20,169 bases of DNA from a virus. The stretch covers positions 1 to 20,169 of the IMG/VR virus record IMGVR_UViG_3300027969_000501; one strand, written 5' to 3'. The notes under the pieces are model-generated. The model did no database searches. It saw only the letters and a list, made by a program, of their open reading frames with translations, and had not been told where the DNA came from. How positions within the stretch are numbered: position 1 is the stretch's first letter; the number at the start of each line of letters is the position of its first letter. A program made the position numbers and the translations under genes. Positions 3,033-16,431 of the stretch are shown here, one piece after another.

Positions 3033-3929
3033 ATGACCTCACAAATTAACGCAAATAACATCAATGGCGCATATCCGGTAGCCGGACAAGACAACAATAG
3101 TGAAGGATTTCGTATAAATTTTACCAACACTTCAACTAACTTTGACTACGCTGCCCAGGAAATTACAGATCTTCAAAGTAAAGTTATTGTAAACTCACAG
3201 CTAACTGGCGGAGCTGCGCTAACAACTCAGAATAACATGTTGAATTCACCGTTGACTAATGCGTTAGTATCTAATTTTGCTTATACAACAGCTAGCATTG
3301 GTACAGTTAGCGGAACATTTACCGTTAACTATACTGCCGGTCATTATCAAACTGTTACTCTAGGTGCAAGTTCAAGTTTAGGATTTTCTAACTTTCCTAT
3401 TTCAGGGCAGCTTGGAGTTGTAAATTTACAAGTAACGGTATCTAATACAGCATATACATTAACACTTCCTTCTTCTGTTAGTGTGAACACAACTGGGGTG
3501 CAAGGATTAGACCCTGATACGAATATAATGGAGTTTTCTGCAACTGGCGTTTATGGATTTACATTTACTACTAGCAGTGGCGGCACAACTATTGTATTAT
3601 CGCAGGTAAATCAAGTGTTACAACCATTTAATGCTAGTAGTAACAGCGTGGCTTCTGCTGCCGCTGCCGGTGTAGAAACTACCACTAGCTATTTTACCAC
3701 TGCTGGCACAGCTACATTAGCTGCAGGAGTAGAGGGACAAATTAAGGTCTTTACTCAAACCGCAGCATCAGTTTCTATGGTAGTTACGGTTGCTGACGCA
3801 GGTTGGAAAGCATCTACCCCAGGTACTTCTGGCACTATTACTTTAGCCAGCAGAGGCACAGGTTGTACATTACAGTATACAAATTCTGTATGGTATTGTA
3901 TTGGCAATAATGGTTGTACATTTGCCTAA
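3033..3929 (+). CDS. Virion structural protein, T4-like marine phage type
   Basis: This 298-residue protein is dominated by Thr, Ser, Ala, Asn and Val. It opens with MTSQINANNINGAYPVAGQD and then a GFRINFTNTSTNF segment. I associate this N-terminus (Q-I-N-A-N-N-I-N-G-x-Y-P-V-A-G-x-D-N-x-S-x-G-F-R) with structural proteins of T4-like cyanophages and pelagiphages; this is recollection, not a search. The middle is low-complexity beta-type sequence. The C-terminus has three cysteines (GCTLQ, WYCIG, GCTF). It starts 42 bases after the large Ig-repeat gene, with AGGAAC upstream of the ATG, and follows a TAAATA late element. It is probably a tail-fibre or baseplate-associated component; the exact role is unknown. 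Confidence 0.6.
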   Translation: MTSQINANNINGAYPVAGQDNNSEGFRINFTNTSTNFDYAAQEITDLQSKVIVNSQLTGGAALTTQNNMLNSPLTNALVSNFAYTTASIGTVSGTFTVNYTAGHYQTVTLGASSSLGFSNFPISGQLGVVNLQVTVSNTAYTLTLPSSVSVNTTGVQGLDPDTNIMEFSATGVYGFTFTTSSGGTTIVLSQVNQVLQPFNASSNSVASAAAAGVETTTSYFTTAGTATLAAGVEGQIKVFTQTAASVSMVVTVADAGWKASTPGTSGTITLASRGTGCTLQYTNSVWYCIGNNGCTFA

Positions 3930-3938
3930 CCAAAATCT

Positions 3939-3967
3939 TTGAATTCTTGTCTTTATTTCTATATAAT
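3939..3967 (+). promoter_or_regulatory. Sigma70-type promoter, TTGAAT-N17-TATAAT
   Basis: The -35-like TTGAAT is at 3939-3944 and a perfect -10 TATAAT at 3962-3967, with a spacer of exactly 17 bases. The predicted start of transcription (about 7 bases beyond the -10) falls on the ATG at 3974, so the message would be leaderless. No Shine-Dalgarno is visible. Confidence 0.6.
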
Positions 3968-3973
3968 ATAGAC

Positions 3974-4198
3974 ATGGAACATCCACTTATTCCCAACATA
4001 GATAATCTTAGCACTGATGAACTCAATGCTAAGATTTCTGAACTAAACAAAAAACTTAGTATTGCCTGGCGCCTAGGCAATCATCACTTGTGCAATCAGC
4101 TAAGAATGGCTATTGAGACCTATCAAAACAAGTATATAGAAAAACTTCGTGCTAGTCAAACTAGCACTGATACTGATGGAATAATTGACATATCATGA
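3974..4198 (+). CDS. Small helical protein of unknown function (74 aa), probably leaderless
   Basis: I place the start at 3974 (MEHPLIPNIDNLSTDEL). A longer frame is open back to 3914, but it would overlap the previous gene and run through the promoter. The protein is 74 residues, with a charged, probably coiled-coil stretch (ELNAKISELNKKLSIAWRLG) followed by HLCNQLRMAIETYQNKY and a polar tail. I do not recognise a named family; I have a general impression of similar short proteins in T4-like aquatic phages. It has its own promoter with a perfect TATAAT, and its stop overlaps the start of the next gene (ATGA), so the two are probably translationally coupled. A small helical protein behind a host-type promoter could be an early regulatory or adaptor factor, but that is a guess. 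Confidence 0.65.
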   Translation: MEHPLIPNIDNLSTDELNAKISELNKKLSIAWRLGNHHLCNQLRMAIETYQNKYIEKLRASQTSTDTDGIIDIS

Positions 4199-4788
4199 AC
4201 GTTAGAATAAAATTTCCAATTACTTTTACAGCTGGTATTTTTTACAATAATGAATTACAGATGAATAACTATATGGTTAATTTGTCTATGCTAACCAATA
4301 GTAATGATGGTGCTACTAATAATATCGCTCTTGACAGAATAAAGTACTTTATCTATACTGAAATAGAAAGCAGTGTTTTTATTGACTCTGCCGATGTTGA
4401 CAGATGTAAGAAATTTATTGATGCCGGAATCAAAATCACAACAATTCCTGATACTCCAGTTGACCAGTTAATTGGTATAATGTTACACTATAAATTGTCG
4501 GCAATTACAGAAGAAAGGCTTCTAATTGAAGAAATAGAAATAAGTTCTAGCATAGGCGAAGGATTAATTTACGTACATGGTGAACATGAAAATGTCGATG
4601 ACCTAGCTGTACCAGCATGGTGGAAGACAGTTGATCTAGTTCATTGTGATGCTGAATTGATTGATACTGATGAAATCGTTACCCTTGCTGATCTTACTGT
4701 TTGGCGTGATCTAAATTTAGACTGGCCAACAGAAGAGGAATCAGAATCTGAAAACACTGTTGTATTTAAATTAGATGATCACAAATAG
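4195..4788 (+). CDS. Conserved-looking hypothetical protein (197 aa)
   Basis: The ATG at 4195 overlaps the preceding TGA in an ATGA arrangement. The protein is 197 residues and acidic, opening with RIKFPITFTAGIFYNNELQM. It contains ALDRIKYFIYTEIESSVFI, which looks like a helix flanked by beta strands, and PVDQLIGIMLHYKLSAITEERL. An acidic tail follows (WPTEEESESEN). There is no transmembrane segment, signal peptide or metal motif. I do not recognise a named family. It sits in a run of four co-oriented genes leading towards the replication and chaperone genes, and the following gene begins inside its last 14 bases. Confidence 0.6.
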   Translation: MNVRIKFPITFTAGIFYNNELQMNNYMVNLSMLTNSNDGATNNIALDRIKYFIYTEIESSVFIDSADVDRCKKFIDAGIKITTIPDTPVDQLIGIMLHYKLSAITEERLLIEEIEISSSIGEGLIYVHGEHENVDDLAVPAWWKTVDLVHCDAELIDTDEIVTLADLTVWRDLNLDWPTEEESESENTVVFKLDDHK

Positions 4789-5296
4789 TTACGGCGAAAT
4801 GATATTCAATCAAGATGATGTCACAAACTTGCTTATGCAAGGGCGTGAGTTAGATTCATTGAAAGGCATGCTAGTAGATGATACAGTTGATATTGAGAAA
4901 ATAGTCAGATTTGTTGAACATTTTCCTAATACATTTATTCCATATAGATGTCTCCCAGATTCTACCTCTATTCCCAATTGGGATTATGAAAAGCAACAAA
5001 CTTGGCATATGCCACAATCTTATAAAGATATGGACATAGCAGAGTATATTTTGAAACTTTGTGATACAGACGCTGAGCTACAGCGGTGTGGTGAAGAATT
5101 ACTATTGTACCAACAGCATGACTTATTCAATCTTCTAAGATATTTGAAATATCTAGTGGATGTAATGAAAGAAAATCACGTTATTTGGGGAGTGGGTCGC
5201 GGTAGTTCAACCGCTTCATATATATTATATAAATTGGGAGTCCATAAAATTGACTCTCTATTCTATAATTTATCCATCACCGAATTTTTACGTTAA
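4775..5296 (+). CDS. DnaE-fragment-like protein: PolIII alpha GRGS segment without the catalytic core
   Basis: This is a 173-residue protein. Its C-terminus, residues 138-173, reads WGVGRGSSTASYILYKLG and then a segment ending ID-SLFYNL-x-x-x-E-FLR. It aligns by eye with the segment of bacterial DNA polymerase III alpha subunits written G-x-GRGS-A-A-G-S-L-V-x-Y-x-LGI-x-x-ID-P-L-x-Y-x-L-x-F-E-R-FL. The protein stops exactly where DnaE would continue into its PDIDxDF catalytic motif, so it cannot polymerise. The upstream part (RYLKYLVDVMKENHVI) also resembles the helix preceding that motif. It is far shorter than DnaE, which is about 1100 residues. The start at 4775 overlaps the previous gene by 14 bases; an in-frame ATG at 4799 is an alternative. 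The role is unknown. The assignment rests on one motif region, and no continuation was found downstream in any frame. Confidence 0.6.
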   Translation: MITNSYGEMIFNQDDVTNLLMQGRELDSLKGMLVDDTVDIEKIVRFVEHFPNTFIPYRCLPDSTSIPNWDYEKQQTWHMPQSYKDMDIAEYILKLCDTDAELQRCGEELLLYQQHDLFNLLRYLKYLVDVMKENHVIWGVGRGSSTASYILYKLGVHKIDSLFYNLSITEFLR

Positions 5297-5320: not shown

Positions 5321-5767
5321 ATGACACAGAAAATTTATAGAACAGCCAAAGGAAAATCAATTGATTTTGGTTCACTGCGCTTACAGAATGAACATGTAAG
5401 AGCAGTTGGAAATATGGGAGTCAACACCAGAGGTGATAGAATTGATGTCAATGGTAATGTAATTGATTCTGCTAATGACCAATTACAAAGACGTATACAG
5501 AGGCAATCAAACGTATCTGATGGCACAGTACATTCAAGCACAAGAGCGCATCAAGCTGAAAAAGCTGCGATGGCCACAGCCGCCCCAGCTCCTGTTGCAG
5601 TTGATCCTATAGCTGCTATAGTTAATACTCAAACATCTAAAACAGCTACTACTGAAGAAACAGAAAATGAATTAGCAGCAGCAATTGCTCGCTCAAAAGC
5701 AGTTAAACAAGAATTAGAAAAGACAGCCAGTGAAAAACCGCAAACCCAACCTGTGAGAAAGATTTAA
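5321..5767 (+). CDS. Hypothetical protein with ordered N-terminus and Ala/Thr-rich tail (148 aa)
   Basis: A strong AGGAG lies 8 bases before the ATG at 5321. The protein is 148 residues. The first 60 or so (KIYRTAKGKSIDFGSLRLQN, then AVGNMGVNTRGDRID and a QLQRRIQRQ stretch) look ordered. The remainder is a low-complexity Ala/Thr/Glu/Lys tail, probably disordered. I have a general memory of similar 'IYRTA-x-GK...LQNE...AVGNM-x-VN-x-RGD' proteins in T4-like aquatic phages but cannot name a function. The stop overlaps the ATG of the co-chaperonin gene (TAATG), so the two are likely co-translated. It could be a scaffold-like or chaperonin-client protein, but only proximity suggests this. Confidence 0.6.
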   Translation: MTQKIYRTAKGKSIDFGSLRLQNEHVRAVGNMGVNTRGDRIDVNGNVIDSANDQLQRRIQRQSNVSDGTVHSSTRAHQAEKAAMATAAPAPVAVDPIAAIVNTQTSKTATTEETENELAAAIARSKAVKQELEKTASEKPQTQPVRKI

Positions 5768-6156
5768 TGAAAGCACAGTACGCACCACATAAAGTAGAAA
5801 AACAACAACTTAAAGCACTACAAAATACAGTACTGGTATCAGATATGATATTTGATGAACGTATCAGTACAGGCGGTATTGTACTATTAAACGACAATGG
5901 CAAGGGAAATGGTATTCGCCCACGTTGGGGTCGTGTATATGCGATTGGTCCAGACCAAAAAGATGTTAATGTGGGAGATTGGGTATTAGTAGCACATGGT
6001 CGTTGGACTAGGGGCCTAGATATTGAAGACGAAACAGGCAAATTAACTATTCGTAAGATTGATCCGAAAGATATTCTATTAGTATCAGATGACGAAGAAT
6101 GTCCTACTGTGGAAGGTATTAGTTCTGCCGTACATATAGATAAAAAAGAAATGTAA
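5767..6156 (+). CDS. GroES-like phage co-chaperonin (gp31-type)
   Basis: This 129-residue protein has the GroES beta-barrel pattern. It shows LQNTVLVSDM (the 'xPL.DRVLV' strand), then a mobile-loop-like segment DERISTGGIVLLND matching the TxGGI(V/L)LP GroEL-binding loop. It continues with WGRVYAIGPDQKDVNVGDWV (matching the 'G-x-V-x-A-V-G-x-G...V-x-VGD-x-V' part) and ends the fold with DILLVSD. Bacterial GroES is about 97 residues and T4 gp31 is 111, so this is slightly long, mainly from a polar C-terminal tail. In T4, gp31 replaces GroES on GroEL to fold the major capsid protein; the same role is inferred here. It follows a TAATG overlap with the upstream gene. No GroEL is present in the window. 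Confidence 0.8.
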   Translation: MKAQYAPHKVEKQQLKALQNTVLVSDMIFDERISTGGIVLLNDNGKGNGIRPRWGRVYAIGPDQKDVNVGDWVLVAHGRWTRGLDIEDETGKLTIRKIDPKDILLVSDDEECPTVEGISSAVHIDKKEM

Positions 6157-7451: not shown

Positions 7452-8019
7452 TTGTGACGGAGTATGTTTAGATTGGGAGTGGGCATTCAATGTTTGGATG
7501 CAACAACATGGATTTGAAGAAGTTCCCGGTTCCAAACTAAACTATGACATGTCTGCTCGCTACGGTATTCCACGAGATCAGGTAGTTAAACTAATACGCA
7601 TCTTCAATGAAAGTGCCGCTATTGGATTTCTACCTCCTATGCGTGATGCTATGTATTACCTCAAACGACTTCATGAAGAATTTGGTTATAAGTTTCATGC
7701 TATCACTTCGTTAAGTTTAGATTCCAATGCTCAAAAACTACGGGAAATGAATCTTCATAAGTTATTTGGTCCTACCGCATTTGAGCGTATTGTATGTTTA
7801 GATACTGGTGCTGATAAAGATGAAGTATTGGCAGAATATAAAGATTCCAGATATTACTGGATTGAAGATAAGTGGGCCAATGCTGAAGCCGGCTATAAAG
7901 CCGGCCTCAGTTGTATCGTGTTAGAACATGGTCATAATATGTACGAGTATCATCCAGAAATTACTATCTTAAAAAACTGGAAATCAATATTTGACCATAT
8001 TACCGATCAGTCGGAATAA
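7414..8019 (+). CDS. HAD-superfamily phosphatase/hydrolase
   Basis: This 201-residue protein has all four HAD motifs. Motif I is ILTDCDGVCLDW, with nucleophile D13 and acid/base D15. Motif II is the threonine of HAITSLS (T98). Motif III is a lysine around residue 135 (GADKDEV). Motif IV is the acidic pair of WIEDKWANAEAG (E151, D152). The motif IV form and the small cap suggest a 5'-nucleotidase or polynucleotide-phosphatase-like HAD, but the substrate cannot be read. It overlaps the upstream hypothetical by 38 bases, has weak purine-rich sequence before its ATG, and overlaps the stop of the convergent homing-endonuclease gene by 13 bases. A role in nucleotide salvage or nucleic-acid end processing would fit its neighbours (inference). 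Confidence 0.8.
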   Translation: MKYLPKQKIILTDCDGVCLDWEWAFNVWMQQHGFEEVPGSKLNYDMSARYGIPRDQVVKLIRIFNESAAIGFLPPMRDAMYYLKRLHEEFGYKFHAITSLSLDSNAQKLREMNLHKLFGPTAFERIVCLDTGADKDEVLAEYKDSRYYWIEDKWANAEAGYKAGLSCIVLEHGHNMYEYHPEITILKNWKSIFDHITDQSE

Positions 8020-8639
8020 AGGTGTTTACATTTATCACCGTGCCAGCGATAGAAGTTGGCACGATTGGATATCTTGCCACAATGCTTACATTCTATATCC
8101 GGTCCACGAATACTATCTAAAGATGCTGGATTGTGTTTTTTACCCCACATTGGATGTTTATCTCCATTTTGATTTTCAATAAGCCATTCTTTAGTTCTCG
8201 TTACACCATACATTCCATTATTTGCCCCGCTTCTTTTACCAATAGTATTTTTTCTTATTAGTTCTTTTGATTTTTCTGAGTGTTTTTTATTAAACATAGG
8301 ATTATTAGCACCCTTAGTGTCTGGAAATAAACCACCACCTGACGATGTATTATACCCATTTGTAAGAGAGTCGTATTCGCCAATGAAAAAATCTTCCATT
8401 ACAGTTAGTGTGTGAGACTGATTAGCTTTAACTGATTCTTTGGCAAGATAGATTTCATCCCAGACAAATTTATCCCAGCCATAACTACGAATCGCATCAT
8501 AAAATTTATTCTTACATTCATCAGTAAAGCACCTATGTTTATGCGACGAAATTCGTGTTTTTAATTTTCTTGAAGTAAACCCAATATAGACTTTGCCAGT
8601 GATAGTATTAGTAGCTCTATATATCGTATAAATATTCAT
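8007..8639 (-). CDS. GIY-YIG homing endonuclease with NUMOD3 repeats and C-terminal zinc finger
   Basis: A free-standing homing endonuclease of the SegA/I-TevI kind. The nuclease domain opens MNIYTIYRATN and has K-V-YIG at residues 16-20, with arginines at 24 and 29 and a later acidic residue in MEDFFIGEYDS. Three NUMOD3-like DNA-binding motifs follow: GANNPMFNKKHSEKS, GANNGMYG and GDKHPMWGKKH. A C-terminal finger has CKHCG and, 14-20 residues on, WHGDKCKH. I chose the start at 8639 because GGAG lies about 10 bases upstream. The frame is open to an ATG at 8696, but those 19 residues are not GIY-YIG-like and cover a hairpin. It is a mobile gene that makes a site-specific break and spreads by repair. 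It lies just downstream of phoH on the same strand. Confidence 0.88.
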   Translation of the reverse strand: MNIYTIYRATNTITGKVYIGFTSRKLKTRISSHKHRCFTDECKNKFYDAIRSYGWDKFVWDEIYLAKESVKANQSHTLTVMEDFFIGEYDSLTNGYNTSSGGGLFPDTKGANNPMFNKKHSEKSKELIRKNTIGKRSGANNGMYGVTRTKEWLIENQNGDKHPMWGKKHNPASLDSIRGPDIECKHCGKISNRANFYRWHGDKCKHLYSD

Positions 8640-8664
8640 GCTGAATGCTCTCCAAAGCGTTAGA

Positions 8665-8694
8665 GTCCCTGGGTGTTGGTTCACCGCGAGGGAC
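8665..8694 (-). promoter_or_regulatory. 5' hairpin upstream of the homing-endonuclease start
   Basis: Read on the minus strand: GTCCCT (8694-8689), CGC, GGTG (8685-8682), loop AACCAA, CACC (8675-8672), C, AGGGAC (8670-8665). The outer stem is 6 bp and the inner stem 4 bp. The hairpin begins where a transcript from the late element at 8707-8700 would begin and ends 15 bases before the GGAG of the endonuclease gene. A 5' mRNA stabiliser or expression control is plausible. Confidence 0.5.
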
Positions 8695-8699
8695 ATCTT

Positions 8700-10771: not shown

Positions 10772-11029
10772 TTATTTTACTGAATCAAATATTTTCTTTT
10801 GTTCTGTATACCAGTTATTCCACGCATCTACTTTGTAACTACATTCATGGTATTTGCCATAATTTGTAGTTACACTAGATATTAAAACACTTAGTTTATC
10901 AGTTATAGGCGCAGCGGTAAGTTGCTCACATGCTGTTGTTAATGACACAGGCGCATCTGGAAAATTTCTTGCTACTGGTGTTGCGACACATCCTGTCAAT
11001 AATAAAGATAAAATTATAACTGATTTCAT
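10772..11029 (-). CDS. o-spanin: outer-membrane lipoprotein (Rz1-like)
   Basis: This 85-residue protein starts with a lipoprotein signal: MKSVIILSLLLTGC with lipobox L-T-G-C, lipidated Cys14. The mature part has a Pro-containing segment (VARNFPDAPVSL) and ends in a helical WNNWYTEQKKIF. With the i-spanin gene immediately upstream (ATGA overlap of stop and start), it should form a two-component spanin. The pair bridges inner and outer membranes and disrupts the outer membrane in the last step of lysis. Spanin genes diverge fast, so the call rests on the lipobox, size and position after an inner-membrane coiled-coil protein. GGGAG lies upstream of the ATG. Confidence 0.75.
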   Translation of the reverse strand: MKSVIILSLLLTGCVATPVARNFPDAPVSLTTACEQLTAAPITDKLSVLISSVTTNYGKYHECSYKVDAWNNWYTEQKKIFDSVK

Positions 11030-11463
11030 TTCTTAACTCCCACTAATGCTGCTTGATTTAATATGTCAATAGCCACAGGATCAACTTTACAAGTTAAGTC
11101 AAGTTTAGCAGCATTCTTGTTAATACGATTTTGAACTACATATTGAACTTCTTTCACAACTTTAATACGATCTACATATACAGTTTCAATTTTACTATTA
11201 GCTTCAGCAGCAGCTTTTTCTGCCTTTGCTACTTTTATCTCAAGCTCAGCGACACGAGCTTTCCACTTGGCTTCATTGACAATTCCACCTTCCATCCAAA
11301 CTGAAAATATCATCACCACTACACTGATCACACGAATAATTTCTACATTTGCTGAAATAAACGGTACCATTTTAAGAATATAACAAGCACCAAATGCTAG
11401 TATACTAGATAATAGTAGTAAGTGATAAACAAAGTCCGGAATAAAAGATAACAACCACATCAT
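11026..11463 (-). CDS. i-spanin: inner-membrane coiled-coil lysis protein (Rz-like)
   Basis: This 145-residue protein has hydrophobic segments near residues 11-33 (YHLLLLSSILAFGACYIL) and 43-58 (VISVVVMIFSVWM). A long charged coiled coil follows (KWKARVAELEIKVAKAEKAA and on), and then CKVDPVAIDILNQAA. The D-x-x-A-(I/V)-x-x-LN-x-A ending is seen, as I recall, in Rz-like phage proteins. It is inserted in the inner membrane with the coiled coil in the periplasm, where it pairs with the o-spanin. The start at 11463 (MMW) has GGAG upstream. The endolysin stop is two bases away and the o-spanin start overlaps its stop, so the three are co-translated. Two membrane segments instead of one is a small oddity. 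Confidence 0.75.
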   Translation of the reverse strand: MMWLLSFIPDFVYHLLLLSSILAFGACYILKMVPFISANVEIIRVISVVVMIFSVWMEGGIVNEAKWKARVAELEIKVAKAEKAAAEANSKIETVYVDRIKVVKEVQYVVQNRINKNAAKLDLTCKVDPVAIDILNQAALVGVKK

Positions 11464-11465
11464 TA

Positions 11466-12095
11466 CTATGCTCCTAAAACTTCTAATGCGTGATTATAAT
11501 GTTTTTCTCTATCAGCAAGACCAATTACTCCACCATTAATACGTTTGGTCATATTCAATATGTCACCCGAATCTGCGTACTGATTGAGGTTATTTGTTTC
11601 CCAAAACCAGCAAGCACTTTGCACAGCACCTTCGAATGTTGCTAGGTATTCTGGCAATTGCTCGACAGGAGTTTCTATACTTTCAGCAAATCGTGTATAA
11701 TTTTCTTTGCCTGTTAATTGAATAAGACCCTTACCTGCGTAACGCCATCCATCACCACTAGATTCTGGGCCGTTACCCATTCTGTCACAATACGCACGAT
11801 TAGCTATGCGTTCCGGATTATGTGCATATTGTTCTGCTATATCAGGCGGAAAACGACTAGGCCATACTCTGGTCAATGATGCTGCTGTATAATTTAAGTT
11901 TTCTTTTAATGCTGTGAAATTAGCACTTTCATGGGCACATTGTGCTAGAAAAGCAGCCACTCTAGGTATTGTGTTGATTTCATAATCAGGCAATATGCGT
12001 GATAAAGCATTATACCAGTCTGTTACGTATGGATTATTAGGTATAATCTGTGCCAGTTGCTCTGGCGTAAAGTTGAATGCAAATCCTTGACTCAT
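11466..12095 (-). CDS. Endolysin, glycoside hydrolase family 19 (chitinase-like lysozyme)
   Basis: This 209-residue protein is a GH19-type peptidoglycan hydrolase that cuts the glycan backbone. The catalytic region is FLAQCAHESANF followed by LKENLNYTAASL, with the likely catalytic glutamates E56 and E65. It continues with IANRAYCDRMGNG, SGDGWRYAGKGLIQLTGKENY and a late WFWETNNLNQYAD, all typical of phage GH19 endolysins. There is no signal peptide, so it relies on the holin for release. AAAGGAAA lies upstream of the ATG. It sits between the secreted peptidoglycan-binding protein and the spanin pair. Confidence 0.9.
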   Translation of the reverse strand: MSQGFAFNFTPEQLAQIIPNNPYVTDWYNALSRILPDYEINTIPRVAAFLAQCAHESANFTALKENLNYTAASLTRVWPSRFPPDIAEQYAHNPERIANRAYCDRMGNGPESSGDGWRYAGKGLIQLTGKENYTRFAESIETPVEQLPEYLATFEGAVQSACWFWETNNLNQYADSGDILNMTKRINGGVIGLADREKHYNHALEVLGA

Positions 12096-12105
12096 TTAAT
12101 TTCCT

Positions 12106-12462
12106 TTATTTTTTAGATGCTAAATTACCAAACTCGGCTTCGGCACGACGAGTAGCTGGACCAGTAATACCGTCTGCTGTAATCTTAGCTCCTGCAGCGA
12201 TTAGCTCTCGTTGACGTTTTTGAACAGCAGGATCAAATCCATATGGTTTAGCAGCAGGTTTAGTAGGAACCTTGGTAGGTACTGGTGTGCCGTCATATTT
12301 CTTGTGTACTTTAATAGTACGGCAAGTCTGCTTAGTTGTTCCGTCTTTATTTAATACAACATGCCCAGATTTGTCTTTAACTGGAGTACATACTTGTTTT
12401 ATTTCAGCAGCATTGACAGAAGCTGTTATGCCTAATATAATTATTGCTAATAGAGTTTTCAT
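12106..12462 (-). CDS. Secreted peptidoglycan-binding-like protein in the lysis cassette
   Basis: This 118-residue protein has an N-terminal Sec signal peptide (MKTLLAIIILGITASVNAAE, cleavage after about residue 18-19). A basic, Pro/Thr/Lys-rich linker follows (VPTKVPTKPAAKPYGFDP). The C-terminal helix pair reads VQKRQRELIAAGAKI then ADGITGPATRRAEAEF. The last part matches the 'Q-x-x-L...G-x-x-x-x-DG-x-x-GP-x-T-x-x-A-x-x-x-F' signature of PG_binding_1 domains. Two cysteines (CTPV..., QTC) may form a disulfide in the periplasm. No catalytic domain is present, so it may anchor to or condition the cell wall. AAGGAA lies before the ATG. It sits between holin and endolysin, which is unusual. Confidence 0.65.
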   Translation of the reverse strand: MKTLLAIIILGITASVNAAEIKQVCTPVKDKSGHVVLNKDGTTKQTCRTIKVHKKYDGTPVPTKVPTKPAAKPYGFDPAVQKRQRELIAAGAKITADGITGPATRRAEAEFGNLASKK

Positions 12463-12471
12463 TGTTATTCC

Positions 12472-12810
12472 TTATAGTGGAGAATCTACTTGTGCTGCCG
12501 GACCCGGTTTGTTTGTATTCATTCCATTATTAATGCCCGCTAATTTTTCTTGGGTACGTCCAAATGCGGTAACTCCCATTATGGCACCCATTGAGATGTG
12601 AAATAGACCAGCTCCTTGTAGAGTGATGGGTTGCCATTGCGTTGATACATTGCCGTTAACTAATGCTTGCATTACACTCCATAAGATTGGAAATAAAACA
12701 AAATCAAATGTACATACAAACATATACATCCATCCCATCATAGGACGCCATTTTGAATTTATCCAGTTTTCTTTTTTCGTTTCACTCTCAGATTGCAATA
12801 TTTCTGACAT
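12472..12810 (-). CDS. Putative holin (three-helix type)
   Basis: I start the gene at 12810 (MSEILQSESETKKENW), with AAGGA upstream. A longer frame reaches a TTG at 12855 but would cross the late element. The protein is 112 residues. After a polar N-terminus comes KWRPMMGWMYMFVCTFDFVL and then FPILWSVMQALV, a hydrophobic hairpin. Next is WQPITLQGAGLFHISMGAIM with a further hydrophobic helix, then the polar FGRTQEKLAGINNG and a hydrophilic tail. The K-W-R-P-(L/M) motif before the first helix and the 'W-Q-P-L-T' segment are seen in three-helix phage holins. It is first in a minus-strand lysis operon with endolysin and spanins, which supports the holin role: forming inner-membrane holes at the lysis time. 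Confidence 0.75.
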   Translation of the reverse strand: MSEILQSESETKKENWINSKWRPMMGWMYMFVCTFDFVLFPILWSVMQALVNGNVSTQWQPITLQGAGLFHISMGAIMGVTAFGRTQEKLAGINNGMNTNKPGPAAQVDSPL

Positions 12811-12832
12811 ACTATATCCTTGAATATAAACA

Positions 12833-12840
12833 TATTTATC
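12833..12840 (-). promoter_or_regulatory. T4-type late promoter for the lysis operon (GATAAATA)
   Basis: On the minus strand GATAAATA lies 22 bases before the holin ATG. T4 geometry puts the start near 12827, giving a 17-base leader that contains the AAGGA Shine-Dalgarno. It matches 7 of 8 bases of the T4 late consensus and is the only promoter-like element seen for the five co-oriented lysis genes. Confidence 0.55.
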
Positions 12841-12843
12841 TAT

Positions 12844-12857
12844 TTTTGGTGCCAAAA
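12844..12857. promoter_or_regulatory. Palindrome next to the dnaJ promoter (operator candidate)
   Basis: TTTTGG-TG-CCAAAA has 6-base arms with a 2-base centre, ending two bases before the -35 of the dnaJ promoter. It lies between the divergent lysis and dnaJ promoters, so a bound regulator could affect either. Confidence 0.4.
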
Positions 12858-12859
12858 GC

Positions 12860-12888
12860 TTGACATAAATATCGTTATACTATACAAT
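12860..12888 (+). promoter_or_regulatory. Strong sigma70-type promoter for the dnaJ-like gene, TTGACA-N17-TACAAT
   Basis: A perfect -35 TTGACA is at 12860-12865 and a -10 TACAAT (5 of 6) at 12883-12888, with an exact 17-base spacer. The predicted start is near 12895, where an ATG opens a 10-codon frame overlapping the dnaJ start. Confidence 0.75.
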
Positions 12889-12919: not shown

Positions 12920-13708
12920 ATGAGTGATCCTTACGAAACACTTGGTGTTCCAAGGAACGCCACCCAAGACGAAATCAAAAAAGCATACAGGAAACTTGCT
13001 AGTGCAACACATCCGGATAAGGGTGGTGATACTAAAAAGTTTCAAGATATCCAATCGGCATATGCTATATTGAGTGATGAGCAAAAACGTGCTCAATATG
13101 ATAATCCAGCTCAGAACGTAGAGTTTAGCTTTGGACCAGGTGGATTTGACTTCAATACCATTTTCAATATGTTTGGCGGTGGGCAAGGAGCTCCTCGCCC
13201 CGGACAGCAGCCTAGGCAAACTCAAACTCGCATGAGTTTATGGATTACATTACAAGATGTAGCAAAGGGTGGAAATCGCACAGTAAGCGTAGGCACTCAA
13301 CACGGCACTTCCAACATTGAAATTGAAATACCACTGGGTATTAATGATGGAGACAATGTTCAATATGCTGGCATTGGGCCTGGCGGCACAGATTTGATCA
13401 TCAATTATCGTATACATCCTAATCCAAAATGGCAAAGAAGTGGACTAACTGTAGTAACTGAACATACAGTATCTATCTGGGATTGCCTAGCTGGATGTGA
13501 TGCCGAAGTAGCAGATTTACTAGGTACTCAATATACTGTAAATATTCCTCCATTAACTCCACCTGGCAGTTTGATGAGATTAAAAGACAAAGGATTGCGT
13601 AATCGGCAGGGAAAATCTGGCGATTTGTTAATAAGAGTACAAGCTAAAATGCCTAGTACAATCAGCGAAGAATTACTAACTTTGATTAAAGCAGCACAAA
13701 TCAAATAA
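12920..13708 (+). CDS. DnaJ/CbpA-like J-domain co-chaperone
   Basis: This 262-residue protein is a class B J-protein. The J domain covers residues 1-65: [20 protein letters not shown], then the HPD motif at 31-33 that stimulates DnaK ATPase, then [18 protein letters not shown] Gly/Phe-rich linker follows ([17 protein letters not shown]). The C-terminal substrate-binding domains begin at [14 protein letters not shown] and include a DVSW-type counterpart [11 protein letters not shown] and [16 protein letters not shown]. There is no CxxCxGxG zinc finger, as in CbpA, and it is shorter than CbpA (306). No Shine-Dalgarno precedes the ATG at 12920; a 10-codon frame from 12895 overlaps it. No DnaK is visible, so it would act on host DnaK. 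It is paired with a Clp unfoldase downstream. Confidence 0.88.
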
Positions 13709-13720
13709 TCATATTATTTG
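13702..13720. promoter_or_regulatory. Perfect palindrome overlapping the clpA -35 (operator candidate)
   Basis: CAAATAAT-cat-ATTATTTG has two perfect 8-base arms. The left arm contains the dnaJ stop codon, and the right arm shares TTG with the -35 box of the clpA promoter. It could be an operator or a weak transcript-end hairpin; it is too AT-rich for a good terminator. Confidence 0.45.
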
Positions 13721-13746
13721 ACTTTCCCATTAACCAACTATATACT
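13718..13746 (+). promoter_or_regulatory. Sigma70-type promoter for the Clp-like gene, TTGACT-N17-TATACT
   Basis: The -35 TTGACT is at 13718-13723 (5 of 6) and the -10 TATACT at 13741-13746 (5 of 6), with an exact 17-base spacer. The predicted start near 13753 gives a leader of about 14 bases containing AAAGGA before the ATG at 13767. Confidence 0.7.
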
Positions 13747-13766
13747 AACAGTACTAAAAGGAATTT

Positions 13767-16046
13767 ATGCAGAATAACAAAGAAATTGAACTTATTGTCA
13801 ATCAGTCTATTAAGATAGCAAGAGACAAACATCACGACTATGTTCTTACTGAACATGTGTTGCTGGCGCTAATTCGACATGAGCCTTTTCGCAAGGCATT
13901 GGAAGGATTCGGCACCAGTGTGGATCTAATGGATCTAGAATTGGACTCATATCTTAACGGTCTTGTCAGTATTGCCAGTAAGAAAAAAGAAGTTAACCCA
14001 CGCAAAACTAATGCCCTTGAGCGTTGTTTTAATCGTGCTATGACAGCAGTATTATTTCAAGGTCGTCGCACTATGACTACCTATGATTTATATCTTGCTA
14101 TGACTAGTGAACACAACAGTCATGCTAATTATTTTCTTATGAAATATGGCGTGAAAAAACAAGAGTTCAAAGATTATTGGGATGCCAATTACAAATACGA
14201 AGAAGCTGAAATTTCATCGTCCGAGGCTGATGAAATTCTCAATGAATACTGTGTAAATCTAACTAAATTAGCTACTGAAGATAAGTTAGAACCAATGATT
14301 GGTCGTTCGTCTGAGTTAGACGAAATCATCACTGTATTAGCTCGTAAGTTTAAAGCTAATGTATTAATGGTGGGTGATCCGGGTGTTGGTAAGACTGCTA
14401 TCGCAGAAGGGCTTGCTCAAGAAATTGTAAAGAACAATGTACCTACATTTCTTAACGGACATGAAGTATGGAGTTTGGAAATAGGTTCATTGCTTGCCGG
14501 CAGTAAGTATCGCGGTGAGTTTGAAGAAAAATTCAAACAGGTTATCGGCGCATTAGAAGCCAAGAAGAATTGTATTTTGTTTGTTGATGAAGCACATACA
14601 ATGAAAGGAGCTGGCGCAAGTTCGCAATCATCATTAGACTTTGCCAATATGTTAAAGCCTGCTATTACCAAGGGTTATCTTAAAGTAATCGCAAGTACTA
14701 CATGGGAAGAATACTACGAATCATTTGAAAAAGATCGTGCCCTAATGCGCCGTTTTCATCGTGTGTCTATTGATGAACCTAATGCAGAAGTTACAGAACA
14801 GATTCTTATTGGACTGTCGCCACGACTTGAAACATTCCATAACGTACTGATTGATACTGATGCGATTAAGGCAGCTGTAGATCTATCCGGTCGTTACATT
14901 CATGATCGCAAGAACCCAGATAAATCAATTGACCTGTTAGATGGTGCTTGTGCTAAAGAACGTGTCAAAGACAAAGGTAATGTTACTATTACTAAAGAAA
15001 TGATCATGGCACAGTTGAGCCGTGTTACTGAAGTTCCAATGGATCGTCTACAAAATGAGCGGTCAACTAACATTGTTGGACTTGAAAGTAATATTAAAGA
15101 AAAGCTGTATGGACAGGATGACGCAGTAGATTCTGTACTTGAACGTGTATACATTAACTTCTCAGGCATTGGCAACGAAAATCGTCCTATTGCCAGCTTC
15201 TTATTCTTAGGACCAACTGGCACAGGTAAAACTGAATTAGCCAAGCTATTGTCACAACATCTTGATATGAAATTGTTAAAGTATGACATGTCAGAATTTG
15301 GCGAGAAGCATACGGTTAGTTCATTAATTGGTGCTCCACCAGGTTATGTTGGCTTTGAAGATGGTAACATTGGTGGTGGTAAACTTATTAGTGATATCAG
15401 TAAGAATCCATATTCAATCTTGTTGTTTGATGAAATTGAAAAAGCTCATCCAGACGTTATTAACATTATGTTACAAATGCTTGATGAAGCACGTATTACT
15501 GGTGCTAACGGTAAAACTGTCAATCTCAAGAACTGTATCATTATTATGACCAGTAATCTTGGTGCTCGTGATAACGAATCTAATAACATTGGTTTTGGTA
15601 AATCACTTGAAAAGACAGGATCAGAAGACAAGGCAATGAAAGACTTCTTTAAGCCAGAATTGCGTAATCGTATTGATCAAATTTGCCGATTCAAGAAACT
15701 AGATACATTAGCTATTAAGAAAATTGTATTGAAGTTTGTTGAGCAGTTGCAAACAAGTTTGTCTGCCAAGAACATCAAACTCAACTTAACAGAAGCAGTG
15801 ATTGATATGTTGGCTGATAAAGGTTATGATAATAAGATGGGTGCTCGACCATTAAATCGTAAGATTGATGAACTTATTCGTGTGCCACTTAGTAAGAAAA
15901 TCTTGTTTGAGCGCCTAGATAACTGTATTATCAATGCTATTATGACTGATGATAAGATTGAATTTACCATTATTCCTACCGCACAAGTAGCTACTGTAGA
16001 TAATTCTGGTATCATCATGTTAGGTGGTGAAACACCAGCAGTTTAA
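13767..16046 (+). CDS. ClpA/ClpC-like AAA+ protein unfoldase
   Basis: This 759-residue two-ring-domain Clp ATPase is about the length of E. coli ClpA (758). A Clp N domain occupies residues 1-140 (IARDKHHDYVLTEHVLLALI). D1 has Walker A GDPGVGKT (203-210), pore loop GSKYRGEFEEKF and Walker B CILFVDEAH. D2 has Walker A GPTGTGKT (482-489), pore loop GAPPGYVGFED, Walker B ILLFDEIEKAHPD, TSNLGA and RNRID sensor/finger segments, and a C-terminal KMGARPLNRKID box. No ClpB-type middle coiled coil separates D1 and D2, so it is an unfoldase rather than a disaggregase. An IGF tripeptide at 608-610 sits where ClpA has its IGL ClpP-docking loop. The gene has its own promoter and an AAAGGA Shine-Dalgarno. 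It should thread proteins into host ClpP or remodel them. Confidence 0.92.
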   Translation: MQNNKEIELIVNQSIKIARDKHHDYVLTEHVLLALIRHEPFRKALEGFGTSVDLMDLELDSYLNGLVSIASKKKEVNPRKTNALERCFNRAMTAVLFQGRRTMTTYDLYLAMTSEHNSHANYFLMKYGVKKQEFKDYWDANYKYEEAEISSSEADEILNEYCVNLTKLATEDKLEPMIGRSSELDEIITVLARKFKANVLMVGDPGVGKTAIAEGLAQEIVKNNVPTFLNGHEVWSLEIGSLLAGSKYRGEFEEKFKQVIGALEAKKNCILFVDEAHTMKGAGASSQSSLDFANMLKPAITKGYLKVIASTTWEEYYESFEKDRALMRRFHRVSIDEPNAEVTEQILIGLSPRLETFHNVLIDTDAIKAAVDLSGRYIHDRKNPDKSIDLLDGACAKERVKDKGNVTITKEMIMAQLSRVTEVPMDRLQNERSTNIVGLESNIKEKLYGQDDAVDSVLERVYINFSGIGNENRPIASFLFLGPTGTGKTELAKLLSQHLDMKLLKYDMSEFGEKHTVSSLIGAPPGYVGFEDGNIGGGKLISDISKNPYSILLFDEIEKAHPDVINIMLQMLDEARITGANGKTVNLKNCIIIMTSNLGARDNESNNIGFGKSLEKTGSEDKAMKDFFKPELRNRIDQICRFKKLDTLAIKKIVLKFVEQLQTSLSAKNIKLNLTEAVIDMLADKGYDNKMGARPLNRKIDELIRVPLSKKILFERLDNCIINAIMTDDKIEFTIIPTAQVATVDNSGIIMLGGETPAV

Positions 16047-16062: not shown

Positions 16063-16431
16063 ATGACAACTTTCACAAACGAAGCATTACTACCAGCCAC
16101 TACATACGGAACTCCATCAGGCAACTATGATGGATCTAGTACCAGTTTTATTGGTAATGCTATTCCGGCTGCTAACTATTATGGTGGTCAGGGTTCAGCC
16201 CAGACTGCTATAATTCAATCAACCGGATTTGTGGGAGTTGTTACTATTGAAGCAACACTAAATGATTGGACACAGCAAGCACTATGGTTTGAAGTTGAAA
16301 CCTATGGTAATGCCAATGTTGCTACTACTGATACACAAGCAATTAACATGCTAGGCAATTTTGTATGGCTACGAGCTAAAGTAACCGACTTTACTGCCGG
16401 TTCATTAAACTCAGCTAATGTGGTTTATTAA
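16063..16431 (+). CDS. Small beta-rich virion-type protein (122 aa)
   Basis: The 122 residues are rich in Thr, Ala, Asn and Gly with no charged helices. They open MTTFTNEALLPATTYGTPSG, continue with STGFVGVVTIEATLNDW and WFEVETYGN, and end NFVWLRAKVTDFTAGSLNSA. The pattern (GF-x-G-x-V-x-(I/L)E-A-T-L...N-F-VW-(L/I)RA-x-V-x-DFT-x-G) suggests a small jelly-roll or beta-sandwich protein, such as a head decoration or tail-tip component. I recall similar short proteins in T4-like aquatic phages but cannot name one. It is preceded directly by the exact late promoter and is probably leaderless. The stop TAA shares a base with the next ATG. Confidence 0.6.
   Translation: MTTFTNEALLPATTYGTPSGNYDGSSTSFIGNAIPAANYYGGQGSAQTAIIQSTGFVGVVTIEATLNDWTQQALWFEVETYGNANVATTDTQAINMLGNFVWLRAKVTDFTAGSLNSANVVY

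Follow-up and report, generated by a model that had tools for sequence, protein, structure and literature searches.

The window analysed here is a virus record of 20,169 bp (IMG/VR IMGVR_UViG_3300027969_000501), a fragment of a large bacterial virus. Pfam and PHROG searches identified T4-like genes in it (a clamp loader, PhoH, a GroES-like protein and virion proteins), and the best cultured match of the clamp loader is in the PA5oct group, at 46% identity. Two adjacent genes on the plus strand, dnaJ (12920..13708) and clpA (13767..16046), encode a DnaJ-like J-domain protein of 262 aa and a ClpA-type HSP100 unfoldase of 759 aa. An earlier account of this DNA, made from the letters and open reading frames alone (the sequence-only reading), had described the two adjacent genes at 12920-16046, with both Walker pairs and both pore loops in the unfoldase, and all of these are present as described.

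The DnaJ-like protein (PF00226, PF01556, PHROG 14336) consists of a J domain (aa 3-61 by Pfam), a G/F-rich linker and a DnaJ_C domain (aa 104-245 by Pfam). We found no Pfam match to the zinc-finger domain in it, and the DnaJ models match it in two stretches. It lacks the zinc finger that defines class A (full DnaJ) and has the HPD-bearing J domain, the G/F linker and the DnaJ_C domain of class B (CbpA-like), to which we assigned it. The HPD motif that the sequence-only reading had noted is at residues 31-33 (13010..13018, plus strand) and is invariant in the 31 aligned phage homologues, including those of Atu_ph07, Phosso and PA5oct. The same reading expected the protein to act with host DnaK. 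This fits most relatives, which lack a DnaK gene, but two of the 24 searched encode their own, each time full length and about 1 kb from clpS (G008:223318-225111, the record of L047, and G013:142268-144061, the record of L008). A phage DnaK as the general partner was rejected, because it is present in these two relatives only. On the minus strand upstream of dnaJ lies a lysis-type cluster (10772-12855) made of small membrane-protein-like ORFs and a GH19 endolysin (11466-12095).

The pairing of the two genes extends well beyond the window. DnaJ is encoded upstream in 79 of 80 Clp loci, and Clp downstream in 79 of 80 DnaJ loci; these counts include homologues down to about 30% identity, some contigs are in both lists, and each of the two exceptions is at the end of a contig. 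A gene of about 150-175 aa separates dnaJ from clpA in roughly one in three loci (57/159), and in those tested it encodes a peptide deformylase (L033:4571-5017, L092:5791-6285 and, in Phosso, L161:4454-4972). This gene is absent from the window. We regard the DnaJ-ClpA pair as real, conserved and functionally meaningful. The two genes had been described as adjacent but separately promoted, which stands as a statement about the sequence: sigma-70-like promoters precede dnaJ (TTGACA-17-TACAAT, matching at 11 of 12 positions; 12860..12888, plus strand) and clpA (TTGACT-17-TATACT; 13718..13746, plus strand). With at most two mismatches, such a promoter is found before dnaJ in 65% of 62 relatives (4% of shuffles) and before clpA in 26% of relatives (3% of shuffles), which would indicate expression by the unmodified host polymerase. 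A T4-late-like TATAAATA lies just upstream of the next gene (16063), a match too short to be significant by itself. We also considered TATATACTA as a phage-specific promoter motif before both genes and rejected it: the one-mismatch count was 16 against 14.3 expected, i.e., no enrichment, and its occurrences are accounted for by sigma-70 -10 elements.

The unfoldase (PHROG 4871, E 4e-233) comprises an N domain, D1, D2 and D2-small, and matches the Pfam domains Clp_N, AAA, AAA_lid_9, AAA_2 and ClpB_D2-small. Its Walker A motifs are GDPGVGKT in D1 (residues 203-210, 14373..14396, plus strand), mostly invariant in 36 relatives, and GPTGTGKT in D2 (residues 482-489, 15210..15233, plus strand), and the Walker B motifs end in DE at residues 274-275 and 555-556. 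The pore-1 loops, identified by the motifs KYR and GYVG (PMC9663308), are KYRG in D1 (residues 247-250, 14505..14516, plus strand) and GYVG in D2 (residues 526-529, 15342..15353, plus strand). Further motifs are an arginine-rich segment (residues 324-330), NRID (634-637) and GARP (692-695). Across the 36 relatives, nearly all of these motor motifs are invariant.

The best NCBIfam match of the unfoldase is the ClpA model TIGR02639, aligned in a single unbroken stretch (E 1e-235). Its score of 784 bits lies below the curated equivalog cut-off of 993, and hence, by the NCBIfam rule, we regard the protein as a member of a divergent phage ClpA-type clade and not as an ortholog of bacterial ClpA. 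In the maximum likelihood tree, a branch with SH-aLRT 99 separates every phage protein from bacterial ClpA, ClpC and ClpB. The question raised by the sequence-only reading, whether the protein groups with bacterial ClpA or with phage proteins, is answered by its position in a phage-specific ClpA-type clade, in a tree of 89 sequences made by a quick method, in which long branches lead to the cultured phages and make their exact placement unsure. The top Foldseek matches of the structure model, which has a low pTM (0.45), are ClpC-ClpP, ClpA and ClpAP-ClpS structures. A J protein adjoining an HSP100 motor, together with a DnaK in two relatives, could suggest a disaggregase of the ClpB kind, with DnaJ and DnaK as its partners. 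However, the ClpB models match the protein in two stretches, whereas the ClpA model and PDB 1ksf align with it continuously. Neither these unbroken alignments nor the structure model revealed the hidden middle domain that the sequence-only reading had named as evidence for a ClpB-like function. Given also the ClpP loop described below, we rejected the disaggregase as very improbable.

The loop predicted to dock ClpP spans residues 606-619 in the large subdomain of D2 (15582..15623, plus strand). It is modelled as flexible (pLDDT <50) and aligns with the IGL loop of E. coli ClpA, which is itself flexible (residues 610-628; PMC9663308). It carries the single IGF tripeptide of the protein (residues 608-610, 15588..15596, plus strand), which agrees with the ClpP-docking motif [L/I/V]G[F/L] (PMC6773864, PMC5540906); at the aligned position, E. 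coli ClpB has GEL. The sequence-only reading had put this tripeptide at the place of the IGL of ClpA, and the register proved to be exact. Among 117 distinct phage sequences, the tripeptide is IGF in 112, VGF in four and IGM in one (phage 121Q), i.e., [IV]GF in 116 of the 117 homologues. Column by column, the tripeptide has entropies of 0.21, 0 and 0.07 bits; most neighbours in the loop have about 1-2.9 bits. Selection for ClpP docking has its strongest evidence in this near-invariance amid variable neighbours, which makes the predicted docking of ClpP by the unfoldase well supported.

The N domain (approximately aa 1-140, 13767..14186, plus strand) suggests how substrates may be delivered. 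In the alignment of the phage homologues, the window residues D24, E29, T81 and R86 correspond to E23, E28, T81 and R86 of E. coli ClpA, which contact ClpS (PMC12493166). These contacts are conserved in most of the 117 phage proteins: E23 in 98 (with D in six), E28 in 114, T81 in 115 and R86 in 114. E. coli ClpB lacks the contacts E28 and T81, another point at which the phage proteins depart from a ClpB-like disaggregase. ClpS itself is encoded by 22 of 36 IMG/VR relatives and by all four cultured phages, and four aligned phage ClpS sequences keep both the N-degron pocket (N34, D35, T38, V43, H66) and the ClpA-contact residues (E79, E82, K84). Conservation on both sides of the interface supports a putative working phage ClpA-ClpS pair. 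A ClpS-type adaptor is better supported than DnaJ as the deliverer of substrates, and the linkage of the genes is what suggests a hand-over from DnaJ to ClpA. We found no leucyl/phenylalanyl transferase, a further part of the N-end rule, in 22 phage records.

The conservation of the docking loop and of the ClpS contacts also bears on the possibility of a chaperone function for ClpA and DnaJ during virion assembly, in which they would remodel proteins without ClpP. Neighbouring genes in the window serve the virion or its assembly (PHROG 12928, PHROG 13138 and the GroES-like gene), the flanking genes in PA5oct encode virion proteins proven by mass spectrometry, and a survey of jumbo phages proposed that ClpA is a translocase or an aid to assembly (Iyer et al. 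2021, PMC7824862). Yet a motor independent of ClpP would not need [IV]GF in an otherwise variable loop, nor the ClpS contacts, and the sigma-70-like promoters of dnaJ and clpA are unlike the T4-late-like element before the gene at 16063. We consider such a role in assembly improbable.

The 20-kb window contains neither a ClpP nor a ClpS gene. Each of the four cultured relatives searched with PF00574 (PA5oct, Atu_ph07, Phosso and 121Q) has a ClpP gene, as do 25 of the 47 environmental IMG/VR relatives; most of the remaining absences are explained by contigs that end before the usual position of the gene. In the clade of the window, this position is about 45-75 kb upstream of clpA. There, a ClpP-family gene is present in each of the 18 records that extend 63 kb or more upstream of clpA (canonical in 16 of the 18), and those with less than 56 kb have none, except for one or two probably circular maps. 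With just 13.8 kb upstream of clpA, the window is not expected to include one. The same sort of truncation is seen in the closest long relative (L002, 177 kb, Clp 97% identical), in which no ClpP or ClpS was found and where the contig has 15.8 kb upstream of clpA. In L008 (Clp 84% identical), ClpP is at 63 kb and ClpS at 82 kb, with a full DnaK adjoining ClpS. In another clade, one phage (G034/L135) has ClpS and no ClpP across the 104 kb upstream of clpA, and phages like this one may rely on host ClpP.

These data also bear on the proposal of the sequence-only reading that the unfoldase docks host ClpP. The docking of ClpP was upheld, but the host partner was not: relatives encode their own ClpP and ClpS, so host ClpP need not be the partner and is probably a secondary one. 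In the full form of this proposal, the phage unfoldase would redirect host proteolysis, with substrates supplied by DnaJ and host DnaK. An IGF loop should fit ordinary ClpP, ClpP is missing from the 20-kb fragment and from the 104 kb of G034, and DnaJ must use the DnaK of the host in most relatives, which have none. We nevertheless find it unlikely, since ClpP is present in all cultured relatives tested and in every sufficiently long contig of the clade of the window.

In the canonical phage ClpP, Ser97/His122/Asp171 are intact, as are most positions of the docking pocket (L23, L48, F/Y49, Y62, F82, L114 and I/V/L189). A second type, about 28% identical to ordinary ClpP, also keeps Ser, His and Asp and has lost the pocket (Met62, Ser82, Thr114, Ser189; E. 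coli mature numbering). Apart from 189, the pocket positions agree with the list for the Neisseria ClpP (PMC6853987); at the site equivalent to E. coli Leu189, the replacement of a hydrophobic residue by Thr is what made Chlamydia ClpP2 unable to dock (PMC6773864). Many genomes hold both types, separated by about 2-4 kb (3374-3994 and 5590-6165 in L172; 5647-6237 and 2548-3126 in L173), and two records hold only the divergent type without the pocket. As a positional marker, we tried the 526-aa gene that separates the two ClpP genes and set it aside, its conservation being too low. The second type has Ser or Thr at positions 82, 114 and 189 of the pocket, and a mixed phage ClpP made of both types, which would offer ClpA a docking face on one side only (compare Chlamydia ClpP1P2), is a reasonable hypothesis. 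A role of ClpP as the protease of head maturation is weakened by the T4-type prohead protease S77, which is separately encoded in six of 16 records, including all those above 300 kb, so that ClpP would not be needed for this function. It is possible, if doubtful, that these large T4-like phages form a lineage with an entire N-degron proteolysis pathway of its own, comprising deformylase (where the locus has it), ClpS with its binding pocket, ClpA, an asymmetric two-type ClpP and clients supplied by DnaJ.

Overall, it is likely that the two genes of the window belong to a ClpA-ClpP-ClpS protease encoded by the phage, clpA supplying its unfoldase subunit and dnaJ its J co-chaperone. Because the relatives carry ClpP and ClpS, these phages probably bring their own protein-destroying machine and do not use only that of the host. 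A hexamer of the 759-aa protein would thread unfolded polypeptides through the pores of D1 and D2, while its IGF loops would insert into hydrophobic pockets on a ClpP ring; this ring would most likely be that of the phage, though host ClpP should also fit. The N domain would take substrates from phage-encoded ClpS. The J protein would drive DnaK (that of the host, or of the phage in a few relatives), thereby keeping clients unfolded or soluble, and the same stream of clients could be fed to folding or to ClpA. We infer the assembly of this complex and its clients, as well as the presence of ClpP and ClpS in the phage from which the 20-kb fragment derives.

Phage ClpA, DnaJ, ClpP and ClpS are already known from Agrobacterium phage Atu_ph07, whose authors listed ClpA (gp292), DnaJ (gp293), ClpP and ClpS as Clp-like genes and suggested roles in assembly, replication or the clearance of aggregates (PMC6102473). 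Its gp293-gp292 pair is adjacent, in the same order and on the same strand as in the window, and its Clp protein is of the same family (38% identity). Atu_ph07 has its own ClpP (gp676) and ClpS (gp708) and, unlike the window, also ClpX and ClpB; we found no peptide deformylase match in it. In Pseudomonas phage PA5oct (Arenbergviridae), dnaJ and clpA are adjacent (EST35_0297-0298), the order of clamp loader, PhoH, virion genes, DnaJ and ClpA is that of the window, and ClpP and ClpS are both encoded; ClpA is 40% identical to that of the window, and DnaJ is shorter and divergent (29% identity). Sinorhizobium phage Phosso encodes DnaJ, peptide deformylase and ClpA consecutively, besides two ClpP genes and ClpS, and differs from the window by the intervening deformylase. 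The E. coli ClpA-ClpP-ClpS system resembles the window protein in domain order, loop register and adaptor interface, but E. coli ClpA is 39% identical to it, has IGL instead of IGF, lies outside the phage clade, and its gene neighbours clpS rather than dnaJ. Another phage-encoded J-domain protein is Rki of phage RB43, which is reported to be an ORFan without generic co-chaperone function and which is expressed early and acts on host DnaK (PMC3486835); the DnaJ of the window has, beyond this, a full DnaJ_C domain and a linked clpA. The jumbo-phage survey cited above noted ClpP, ClpS, ClpA and DnaJ in phages separately. In the literature searched, we found no report of a conserved DnaJ-(deformylase)-ClpA cassette, of a docking loop under selection or of a paired ClpA-ClpS interface, and the phrases 'phage-encoded ClpP' and 'phage ClpP' occur in no paper among the full texts searched.

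The usual view is that phages borrow the Clp proteases of their hosts or block them. Here, dnaJ and clpA are strictly linked, the hook for ClpP is conserved, and ClpP and ClpS are encoded in the same genomes, which suggests that regulated proteolysis is part of the equipment of a whole lineage of large phages. This raises the question of what is destroyed, whether host defence proteins, host regulators or spent proteins of the phage itself, for which cultured models exist in PA5oct, Atu_ph07 and Phosso.

Three other ORFs of the window deserve mention. The GroES-like gene (5767-6156, plus strand; PHROG 931) encodes a GroES/gp31-like co-chaperonin and is the third chaperone gene within these 20 kb. 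A 229-aa ORF adjoining phoH (8007-8696, minus strand) has a GIY-YIG-like start resembling that of homing endonucleases. Finally, a 173-aa ORF (4775-5296, plus strand) matches PHROG 11127 ('DNA polymerase') over its full length and has a DnaE-like GRGSS motif; by these features, it belongs to a predicted family of stand-alone fragments resembling polymerase III alpha.
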